Assembly: GCF_024730785.1 (NCBI RefSeq) | Contig: NZ_CP102830.1 | Location: 2,170,001 to 2,234,000, forward strand | Length of the DNA: 64,000 nt | Direction of reading: 5' to 3' | From: Pseudomonas sp. LS44 | GTDB lineage: Bacteria; Pseudomonadota; Gammaproteobacteria; Pseudomonadales; Pseudomonadaceae | Shown here: piece after piece, positions 49,701-51,392 of the stretch | Layout of the letters: each line of letters begins with the position of its first letter | Position numbering within the stretch: the stretch's first letter is position 1 | The notes under the pieces: generated by a model | Told to the model about the DNA's origin: nothing | Databases searched by the model: none | The model's input: the letters and a program-made list of their open reading frames with translations, nothing else | Translations under genes and position numbers: made by a program

Positions 49701-49839
49701 CGTCGGCGGGCTGATCCTCAGCCAGATCCTGACCCTGTACACCACTCCGGTGGTCTATCTCTCCCTCGACCGCCTGCGCCATCGCTTCAATAGTTGGCGC
49801 GGCGTGCGTACCGATGCCGCCTTGGAAACACCGCTATGA
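46732..49839 (+). CDS. muxC: RND efflux transporter subunit
   Basis: A 1035-residue paralogue of muxB. N-terminus MNLSAPFIRRPVATMLLSLAILLLGGLSFGLLPVSPLPQMDFPVITV; TM4 acidic pair in MALILAAGLVVDDAIVVLENIARHIDNG; C-terminal half with LLIGIVKKNAILMIDLALQLERESGLSP. It would assemble with MuxB in the tripartite pump. The start at 46732 is used because GAGG precedes it by seven bases, though a GTG two codons earlier is possible. The stop overlaps the opmB ATG. Confidence 0.94.
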   Translation: MNLSAPFIRRPVATMLLSLAILLLGGLSFGLLPVSPLPQMDFPVITVQANLAGASPEIMASSVTTPLERSLGTIAGITQMTSRTGQGSSRIILQFESNRDINGAARDVQAAINASRNLLPSGMRSMPTYKKVNPSQAPIMVLSLTSDVLEKGQLYDLASTILAQSLSQVTGVGEVQVGGSSLPAVRVELEPQLLNQYGLSLDEVRTAIDNANVRRPKGQVADGERQWQVQANDQLERAKDYRPLIIRYQDGAALRLSDVAQVRDAVEDRYNSGFFNDNSAVLLVINRQAGANIIETIESIKAQLPALQAVLPASVQLDLAMDRSPVIRSTLHEAERTLLIAVALVIVVVFLSLGNLRASLIPALAVPVSLIGSFAVMYLCGFSLNVLSLMALILAAGLVVDDAIVVLENIARHIDNGEKPFQAALRGTREVGFTLLSMNLSLVAVFVSILFMGGIVGQLFREFSITLAASILVSLVVSLTLTPMLCARWLKPHDPQRESRLQRWSQGVHERLVDFYDRSLGWVLRHPRLTLLSLLATIGLNVFLYVIVPKTFLPQQDTGQLIGFIRGDDGLSFSVMQPKMEIFRRAVLKDPAVQSVAGFIGGNGGINNAFMIVRLKPLEERGVDAQKVIERLRKSTPKVPGGRLMLMADQDLMFGGSREQDTSQYQYVLQTDELSALREWLPKVATALKALPELTAIDAREGRGAQQVTLQIDREQAKRLGVDMAMVSTVLNNAYSQRQISTIYDSLNQYQVVMEVNPKYAQDPNTLDQVQLITADGKRVPLSTFAHYTYSLEDDRVTHDGQFASESISFDLAPGVSLDQATVAIDRAIAAIGLPTDVIGRLGGAGDAFKSTQENQPWMILGALVLVYLVLGILYESYIHPLTILSTLPSAGVGALLTILLVGGQFSLISLLGLFLLIGIVKKNAILMIDLALQLERESGLSPSESIRQACLQRLRPILMTTLAAILGAMPLLIGGTEGAEMRQPLGITIVGGLILSQILTLYTTPVVYLSLDRLRHRFNSWRGVRTDAALETPL

Positions 49840-51392
49840 ATTCATTTACCCGAATCGGCTTTGTAGGGCGGGTGCAACCCGCGCGAGCATTCTTCAGCGC
49901 TGTGGCGGGTTGCACCCGCCCTACGGCTCTGGCCCTGTGCATTAGCCTGACGCTGAGCGCCTGCGCCATCGGGCCCGATTATCAGCGCCCGAGTCTGGCC
50001 GGCGGCACACCCACCGCCTTCAAGCATGCCGCCGGTTGGAAAGCCGCGACACCCGCCAACGCTTTGCAAAGCGACGCCTGGTGGCAACTGTATGGCGATG
50101 CTCAGCTGAACCAGTTGATCGAGCGACTGAACGCCAACAACCAGAGTCTGGCCAGCTCCGAAGCGCAATACCGCCAGGCCCGAGCCCTGACTCGTGGTGC
50201 GCGGGCGGCGTTCTTCCCGACCATCGGCACCAATGTCGGTGTCAGTCGTGCAGGGCAGGGCGGCGGCAGCAATACCATCAGCACGTCTGACGGCATCAGT
50301 GTCAGCGGTTCGAGCGCCGCCAACGTATCGAAGAGCTACGAGGCGAGCCTCGGCGTGAGCTGGGAGCTGGATCTGTGGGGCAAGTTGCGCCGCCAGCTGG
50401 AAGCGGACAACGCCAGCATGGACGCCAGCGCCGCCGATCTCGCCGGGGTGCGTCTGAGCCTGCAGTCCGAACTGGTGCAGAGCTATCTGCAACTGCGTGT
50501 ACTGGATGAACAGAAGCGCTTGCTCGAGGCGACGGTGGTGGCGTATCAGCGCGCGCTGAAGCTGACCGACAACCAGTACAACGCCGGCATCGTGCCGAAA
50601 TCCGACGTCACTCAGGCGCGGACTCAGCTGAAAAGTACTCAAGCGCAGTCCATCGATCTGGAGTACCAGCGCGCCCAGCTGGAACATGCCATCGCCGTGC
50701 TCATCGGCGTGCCGCCGAGCGAGTTCGATCTCGCTGAACTCGACCAGGTTCCCGCGCTACCGGAAATCCCGCTGAACGTGCCATCCGCCTTGCTCGAACG
50801 GCGACCGGACATCGCCGCTTCGGAGCGCCGGGTGATCGCCGCCAACGCGGATATCGGTGTGGAACAGGCCGCCTACTATCCAGATCTGGTCTTGTCGGCC
50901 AGCGGAGGCTATCGCAGTGGCAGCCTGAATGACTGGATCAGCGCACCGAACCGCTTCTGGTCGATCGGCCCGCAATTCGCCATGACCCTATTCGACGGCG
51001 GCATCATCCGCTCGCGGGTCGAGCAGGCCGAAGCAAGCTATGACCAGACCGTCGCCGACTACCGGCAGAGCGTGCTCGATGGCTTCCGCGAGGTGGAGGA
51101 TTACCTGGTCCAGCTGGATGTCTTCACTCGCGAGAGCGCGGTGCAGGAGGAGGCTTTGGCGTCCGCCCGCGATTCGCTGCGGCTGATCGAAAACCAGTAC
51201 AAGGCCGGCACTATCGACTACAACAGCGTGGTCAACGTGCAAACCAGCGCGCTCTCCAACGAGCGCACGCTGCTCAGCCTGCAAGGCAGCCGCCTGACGG
51301 CCAGCGTGCAACTGATCGCCGCCCTGGGTGGCGGCTGGGACGCCGCCAAAATCCAGGAAACCCCACTGATGCAGCAGGACGCCGCGCGCTGA
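49836..51392 (+). CDS. opmB: RND outer-membrane lipoprotein channel
   Basis: A 518-residue OprM/OpmB-type channel. The lipobox is LSAC with lipid Cys at residue 43, followed by AIGPDYQRPSL. Two repeats with helical barrels follow (SYEASLGVSWELDLWGKLRRQLEAD; QFAMTLFDGGIIRSRVEQAEASYDQTVADYRQSVLDGFREVEDYL). It is the exit duct of MuxABC. Residues 10-30 (VGRVQPARAF through AGCTRPT) are encoded by an in-frame REP pair in the signal peptide, making the n-region unusually long and positively charged. ATG overlaps muxC stop. Confidence 0.92.
   Translation: MNSFTRIGFVGRVQPARAFFSAVAGCTRPTALALCISLTLSACAIGPDYQRPSLAGGTPTAFKHAAGWKAATPANALQSDAWWQLYGDAQLNQLIERLNANNQSLASSEAQYRQARALTRGARAAFFPTIGTNVGVSRAGQGGGSNTISTSDGISVSGSSAANVSKSYEASLGVSWELDLWGKLRRQLEADNASMDASAADLAGVRLSLQSELVQSYLQLRVLDEQKRLLEATVVAYQRALKLTDNQYNAGIVPKSDVTQARTQLKSTQAQSIDLEYQRAQLEHAIAVLIGVPPSEFDLAELDQVPALPEIPLNVPSALLERRPDIAASERRVIAANADIGVEQAAYYPDLVLSASGGYRSGSLNDWISAPNRFWSIGPQFAMTLFDGGIIRSRVEQAEASYDQTVADYRQSVLDGFREVEDYLVQLDVFTRESAVQEEALASARDSLRLIENQYKAGTIDYNSVVNVQTSALSNERTLLSLQGSRLTASVQLIAALGGGWDAAKIQETPLMQQDAAR
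49863..49924. repeat. REP pair inside opmB coding sequence
   Basis: GTAGGGCGGGTGCAACCCGC head and its inverted partner, 62 bp, translated in frame as opmB residues 10-30. Same class as 368-427. Confidence 0.9.

Follow-up and report, generated by a model that had tools for sequence, protein, structure and literature searches.

In-frame palindromic repeats recur at the junctions of the muxABC-opmB operon in Pseudomonas

The window analysed here, a stretch of 64,000 nt from the genome of Pseudomonas sp. LS44, carries on its + strand a complete muxABC-opmB operon (41977-51392), in which we detected a REPIN (REP doublet forming hairpins), a pair of GTAG-headed repetitive extragenic palindromic (REP) sequences, lying in frame within opmB. 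It occupies 49863-49924 on the + strand (62 nt) and encodes residues 10-30 of OpmB, in the signal peptide. Repeat-derived stretches of several sequence families are present in frame between the opmB start and the hydrophobic h-region of the signal in 17 of the 118 genomes in which the start was read, and at the muxB-muxC junction of the same operon nearly all inserts are spanned by one open frame that ends on the next start codon. We consider it likely, at a probability of about three in four and from sequence comparison, that the window REPIN was inserted into the n-region of the signal and is translated there, and that repeats at the coupled muxABC-opmB junctions persist mostly where the path of the ribosome stays open. 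The genus-wide recurrence and the muxB-muxC junction go beyond the preliminary description of this stretch, which had drawn attention to the REPIN in opmB.

The arms of the REPIN (GTAGGGCGGGTGCAACCCGC at 49863-49882 on the + strand and its perfect reverse complement at 49905-49924 on the - strand, 20 nt each) are 100% complementary and are separated by 22 nt. Codon 10 of opmB starts at 49863, and position 49924 falls on the second base of codon 30, as the preliminary description had it; its main point, a REPIN in frame in a signal peptide, is well supported by comparison. Behind the repeat-encoded n-region follow an ordinary h-region and an LSAC lipobox (ALALCISLTLSAC, 49926-49964, + strand, Cys43), the lipobox being read directly from the sequence. 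Removal of the repeat had been said to leave MNSFTRIGF followed by ALALCISLTLSAC, and the signal does read so with 63 nt taken out, but exact removal of 49863-49924 breaks the frame since the palindrome measures 62 nt; had just the palindrome been cleanly inserted, the frame would have been lost. The REPIN lengthens and charges the n-region as proposed: the nearest relative found (G027, 87% identical) has a 21-residue signal, MNALPIRPLCLALAVLTLSAC, without a REPIN. The objection that orthologues lacking a REP might share the same N-terminal segment applies only in part, since orthologues with similar segments exist but carry REPINs too, of the same family and of other families. Of the two earlier suggestions, that of a tolerated insertion accepted by selection fits best, the other being that the REPIN may change export. 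The REPIN also encodes a second lipobox-like motif, VAGC (49902-49913, Cys26), a possible alternative lipidation site; at the corresponding place the loci L003 and L141 have AGF.

The muxB-muxC junction was parsed in all 81 genomes collected for it (the window, 60 from close relatives and 20 wider). A direct 4-nt overlap (gap -4) was found in 35 of them, a gap of 0 in one (G242) and an insert of 7 to 307 nt in 45; by eye, most inserts are palindromic or repeat-like, and three are shorter than 40 nt. In 44/45 inserts a single open bridge reading frame (ORF) leads from the RTGA in which muxB stops to a stop codon within -10 to +1 of the muxC start, against a dinucleotide-shuffle expectation of 18.2 when the insert length is preserved and 7.2 when it may vary. 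Of the 45 inserts, 43 have a length of 1 mod 3, and the bridge frame is likewise open in 43, whereas the two alternative frames are open in 11 and 9. In this frame 41 inserts first meet a stop at +1 of the muxC start, giving the 4-nt RTGA overlap (-4 nt) described for mycobacterial interspersed repetitive units (MIRUs); two others have it at -2, another at -3 and G255 at -93. The muxC start of G120 was set 3 nt too far downstream and is counted as -2, which leaves the total of 44 unaffected. Grouping by shared 9-mers yields 29 groups, all with a bridging member and 27 wholly 1 mod 3. One group of nine genomes has inserts of 103 to 277 nt, all 1 mod 3, so later insertions and deletions also kept the frame.

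In the window itself the muxB-muxC spacing is 307 nt, and three stacked repeats form a single bridge ORF of 104 codons (46421-46735, + strand) that runs from the ATGA at the muxB stop to the TGA of muxC's ATGA and has no Pfam match. The repeats, all on the + strand, are a REPIN-like pair of another family (GTAGCCCGGATGCAATCCGGG..., 46442-46501), with a similar pair at the G109 junction; a CCCCTCTCCC-type repeat (46520-46626, approximate limits), with a similar element at this junction in G266, G332 and G270; and a second REPIN-like pair, GTAGGAGCGAATTCATTCGCGA... (46658-46716), by eye of the family that flanks the RAYT-like gene (REP-associated tyrosine transposase) of the window.

A relative of OpmB was found in 149/149 genomes of the genus, and searches of 398 genomes with two queries at strict thresholds gave 59 and 55 matches. 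The 118 genomes with a read opmB start comprise sets of 68, 9, 39 (of 40 fetched) and 2 without overlap; the 68 were picked for closeness to the queries and the sample is not random, and L328 and L151, which were unparsable, lie outside it. The in-frame repeat-derived stretch is present in G000 (the window), G008, G017, G054, G069, G078, G090, G109, G118, G122, G187, G266, G270, G288, G303, G332 and G380. In two further genomes, G082 and G224, the opmB start has shifted downstream past an insert; that of G082 holds a REP pair, and the ORF from the old start stops 4 nt before the new ATG. The inverted-repeat score is at least 10 in 14 genomes and at most 8 in the other rows among the best 45 listed; in rows read later it is 22 in G122 and 23 in G017, and at most 9 in the rest, including G090 (7). 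Rows with a long inverted repeat have the REP head some 14 to 39 nt downstream of the ATG; in G090 the distance is 72 nt. Named GTDB loci were also read (40 of L031-L079 and eight more, three of them the same genomes as genomes with handles), and in L036 and L052 (Pseudomonas sp. WS 5079) the repeat in the opmB signal is shortened, in frame. In a genome of 78% completeness (L119, G222), the opmB signal lacks the REPIN of its relatives, CCCGTA being joined to ATGGGG with 66 nt fewer, possibly by excision or as an effect of assembly. The idea that undecorated n-regions (MNRAPFAR, KFAPT) are scars of deleted REPINs was a by-eye impression and was set aside.

The repeats at opmB do not appear to be one old insertion. 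Copy counts in the host genomes cover three opmB families, all of them multi-copy. The first, GTAGGGYGGGTGMAACCCGC, occurs in 75, 112 and 71 places in G000, G054 and G332, in three places in G266 and nowhere in G027. The second, GTAGGNGCGAGCNNTGCTCGC, is present in 65 places each in G078 and G270, 48 in G303, 12 in G118 and 7 in G008; the genomes of the repeat type labelled C hold 0 to 2, and near variants are commoner in them. Strict counts had hinted that the C-type opmB copy is the last survivor of its family, but this was rejected because relatives are present at 3 mismatches. G017 and G122 have a GTAGGAGCGAGCTTGCTCGC-type repeat, and G266, the other close relative of LS44, carries at codons 22-47 a different dispersed repeat (40 places matched, the number scored from 139 candidates). 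Among the 120 protein matches listed of 2017, a further type (VGANSFAR...KFAPT) is found in at least four N-termini, and a fifth has a variant of it. The decorated rows are scattered over a tree of 98 mature OpmB sequences; L052, for example, branches with 31 undecorated rows. The labels of the three A-type rows need 3 changes, no fewer than shuffled labels, and those of the six C-type rows need 4 (shuffled mean 5.4). As 27 of the 95 inner forks are open, we give no number of repeat gains. Two loci show mixtures of repeats: in L003 (G054) two REPINs of different families stand in tandem between the old ATGA and the h-region, the GTAGGGYGGGTGMAACCCGC REPIN being preceded by one of another family, with the frame open through both (82 codons) and a second ATGA between them; in L122 (G288) the opmB REPIN is the REP variant GAGCCATGCTC, and most of the dispersed G288 copies listed are GGGCCATGCCC.

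The family of the window REPIN has 96 arms in the 4.46-Mb LS44 genome (48 per strand, at most 2 mismatches) compared with none for a reversed-pattern control, and is thus no chance match. One copy lies intergenically in the window at 368-427 (+ strand), where the preliminary description had placed the same REP class, and the family match agrees. The 96 arms group into 51 clusters, of which 11 contain one arm and 40 contain at least two. With its GTAG/GTGG-type head and palindromic core (GTAGGGCGGGTGCAACCCGC), inverted doublets and high copy number, the family has the features of REPINs, and it is mostly extragenic: opmB is the sole one of the 51 clusters judged intragenic, by homology. Codon-model gene calls placed 35 clusters between co-directional genes, 13 between convergent and two between divergent genes, with one unclear; the gene caller put the opmB start behind the repeat, so opmB is counted among the 35 and no cluster was scored inside a gene. 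In nine of the 51 clusters, opmB included, an open frame crosses the repeat and scores as coding behind it. Of the other eight, two (L180 and L219) have Pfam domains that start well downstream of the repeat, and the remaining six lack any Pfam match.

The genes of the operon were identified by family matches. These are muxA (41977-43326), muxB (43323-46424; NF007798 above cut-off), muxC (46732-49839; RND_permease_2 above cut-off, the best match, MdtC NF007905, being below its cut-off) and opmB (49836-51392; TIGR01845 and PF02321 above cut-off), all on the + strand. The last encodes an outer-membrane efflux factor, a lipoprotein by its lipobox, behind MdtA/MuxA, MdtB/MuxB and MdtC-like genes, as expected of the OpmB of MuxABC-OpmB. 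The stop of muxA overlaps the start of muxB as ATGA, the opmB ATG at 49836 shares an ATGA with the muxC stop, and the bridge ORF overlaps both of its neighbours. These stop/start overlaps suggest that the translation of each gene draws on ribosomes from the preceding one.

We propose that REPINs and other repeats would often land in the stop/start overlaps of the operon and would be kept mostly where the ribosome path remains open. At muxB-muxC an insert would turn into a bridge ORF, beginning in the former overlap and stopping on the muxC start. At opmB the start codon would usually stay in the overlap, and the repeat, read in frame, would lengthen the n-region; once Cys43 is lipidated, it would presumably be cleaved off with the rest of the signal. 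The n-region is the part of a signal peptide taken as most tolerant of added residues. The presence of the repeats, their frame and its preservation, their recurrence and their family diversity are observed; ribosomes would have to translate them, translational coupling would be the selected property, and the lengthened OpmB signal would still function. A wider statement, that overlaps at operon junctions act as a filter turning incoming palindromic repeats into translated parts (bridge ORFs and signal n-regions), is a tentative extension that we would not yet favour.

Several observations weigh against a selected open path. The genomes and insert groups at muxB-muxC are not independent, and the G255 insert has no single open frame; it differs by one base in length from those of G012 and G063, and by eye a second short ORF runs to the muxC start. 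In G224 the opmB start has moved and the ORF from the old start stops 50 nt before the new one, with no single bridge; that distance and the mere REP-head remnant in the 131-nt insert rule out a bridge and restart like that of G082. The C-type orthologues G069, G109, G187, G288 and G380 have an ATG 12 to 23 codons before the lipobox cysteine, in or just after the repeat, so a later OpmB start is possible there. For the window REPIN no precise empty site could be aligned, the n-region of G027 being too diverged base by base and G266 having a different repeat there. In the LS44 genome we found no cognate RAYT flanked by the same REPs that might mobilise the opmB REPIN: of two Y1_Tnp matches one is below its curated cut-off, and other repeats flank both. 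One match, the RAYT-like gene of the window (17510-17833, - strand; L175), has GTAGGAGCGAATTTATTCGCGA-type REPINs on both sides, by eye of the same family as one element of the muxB-muxC bridge.

Bridging elsewhere in the LS44 genome is also only weakly in excess. Under a loose criterion (±10 nt) five further REP clusters lie in bridges between co-directional genes, namely recB-recD, kdpD-kdpE, cobQ-cobU, an aromatic lyase and a thioesterase, and, by eye, fliI-fliJ; most of these names are best family matches of fragments. This makes 5/34 co-directional clusters compared with 1.95 expected from shuffles, and 3/10 compared with 1.57 for gaps of at most 160 nt, and a strong genome-wide excess was rejected on these counts. 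The recB-recD bridge (L179) counts only with a chosen TTG start of recD, as the ATG of the gene caller misses the ±10-nt limit by 1 and would leave 4/34. G224, the internal ATG codons of the C-type orthologues and the L179 start slightly weaken the reading of selected open paths and slightly raise that of an internal OpmB start. Three of the bridges are as follows. In L193 (G000:C1:1752213-1754066) the 45-codon ORF from the kdpD stop to the ATGA of kdpE contains a REPIN of the opmB family. In L179 (G000:C1:124187-126052) a REPIN-containing ORF runs from an ATGA at the recB stop and ends 4 or 11 nt from the recD start, depending on the start chosen. In L207 (G000:C1:2939794-2941614), by eye, two REP families share one ORF between the genes for cobyric acid synthase (cobQ) and adenosylcobinamide kinase (cobU).

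Among the alternatives, repeats might insert anywhere and survive wherever they are harmless, with no role for coupling, the opmB frame being kept because it is coding. Such neutral tolerance would be enough for opmB alone and agrees with the 29 of 34 co-directional REP clusters in the LS44 genome that lie between genes without a bridge, but it leaves unexplained why 44 of 45 muxB-muxC inserts have an open frame ending on the next start, and we regard it as unlikely.

It is rather improbable that one of the GTG codons within the repeat (49872 or 49902) serves as the OpmB start, which would make the first part of the REPIN an untranslated leader and its frame coincidental. A start downstream of the repeat, which the preliminary description had named as an objection, finds no ATG, GTG or TTG between 49924 and the lipobox, but the two GTG codons inside the repeat are in frame. 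Besides these codons and the C-type ATGs, the orthologues from P. cavernae and P. carbonaria (P0003 and P0004) are given starts much nearer the lipobox in public records, and a passage of the 2013 survey by Di Nocera et al. states that REPs inside genes exist but cautions that many N-terminal ones may be misannotated starts (PMC3733652). Against an internal start, the ATGA start is common to orthologues with and without a repeat and the 17 repeats keep its frame, and by eye neither GTG has a convincing Shine-Dalgarno site. Moreover, in G078, G270, G303 and G008 the stretch from the beginning of the repeat up to the last ten codons ahead of the cysteine contains no ATG, GTG or TTG, so that a signal of usual length must begin before the repeat in these genomes.

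Equally improbable is a role of the REPIN as an RNA hairpin, retained for tuning opmB or stabilising the muxABC message, with translation incidental: the predicted fold of the repeat is very stable (-60.6 compared with a shuffle mean of -42.6 kcal/mol, z -4.7, beating all 200 shuffles) and REPs within 15 nt of a stop codon reportedly stall ribosomes in E. coli (Liang, Rudd and Deutscher 2015, as cited in a passage of PMC12306157), but the in-frame insert of G266 has by eye no GTAG-headed arms, the REPs of G090 no longer pair lengthwise while keeping the frame (each retains a short hairpin by eye), the repeat of L036 and L052 is shortened in frame, and a hairpin has no need for a length of 1 mod 3 at muxB-muxC. 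The reading of translated inserts at coupled junctions is the one we retain.

The interest of these junctions lies in the recurrence of different repeats at one place and in the frame rule at muxB-muxC. If the retained reading is true, genomes alone would reveal a strong constraint on an overlapping gene pair to stay translationally linked, and repeats called extragenic could turn coding, as a possible source of new signal-peptide n-regions. If it is general, one could tell which gene pairs need translational coupling from the reading frame of repeats at operon junctions, a natural assay that would point here above all to the two subunits of a hetero-oligomeric pump. According to a passage of PMC7015380, E. 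coli MdtBC works as a B2C heterotrimer and MuxBC is homologous to it, which gives a possible reason for coupling muxB to muxC. Among the open-access papers listed (titles and abstract openings; most subscription journals lie outside this scope) we found no description of REPINs as bridge ORFs or signal peptides.

The repeats resemble several known systems. Passages of PMC3116915 and PMC3733652 describe Pseudomonas REPINs and GTAG-class REPs with the same GTAG head, inverted doublets, high copy number and mostly intergenic position, and in P. fluorescens SBW25 overlap with genes is said to be limited to 14 of the most abundant REP 16-mers (PMC3116915). The opmB copy differs from these in being intragenic and in frame. 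As in the stop-codon REPs of E. coli described above, a REP lies here shortly behind a stop codon and would interact with translation; there the ribosome is stalled, whereas here the overlap start would carry ribosomes through the REP. Rickettsia palindromic elements (RPEs) are palindromic repeats found in frame inside protein genes. They are named in a passage of the 2013 survey (PMC3733652), and are likened here by description; their host is unrelated, and here it is the n-region of a signal that is struck by several families. Mycobacterial MIRUs appear to be the closest precedent. These apparently mobile repeats at start codons contain an ORF coupled to the next gene at -4 nt, which likely limits damage to expression (Supply et al. 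1997, via a passage of the 2025 review PMC12548453). The likeness to MIRUs, again drawn by description, has its limits, in that several unlike repeat types meet here at one junction and the open frame looks as if it had been selected insert by insert.

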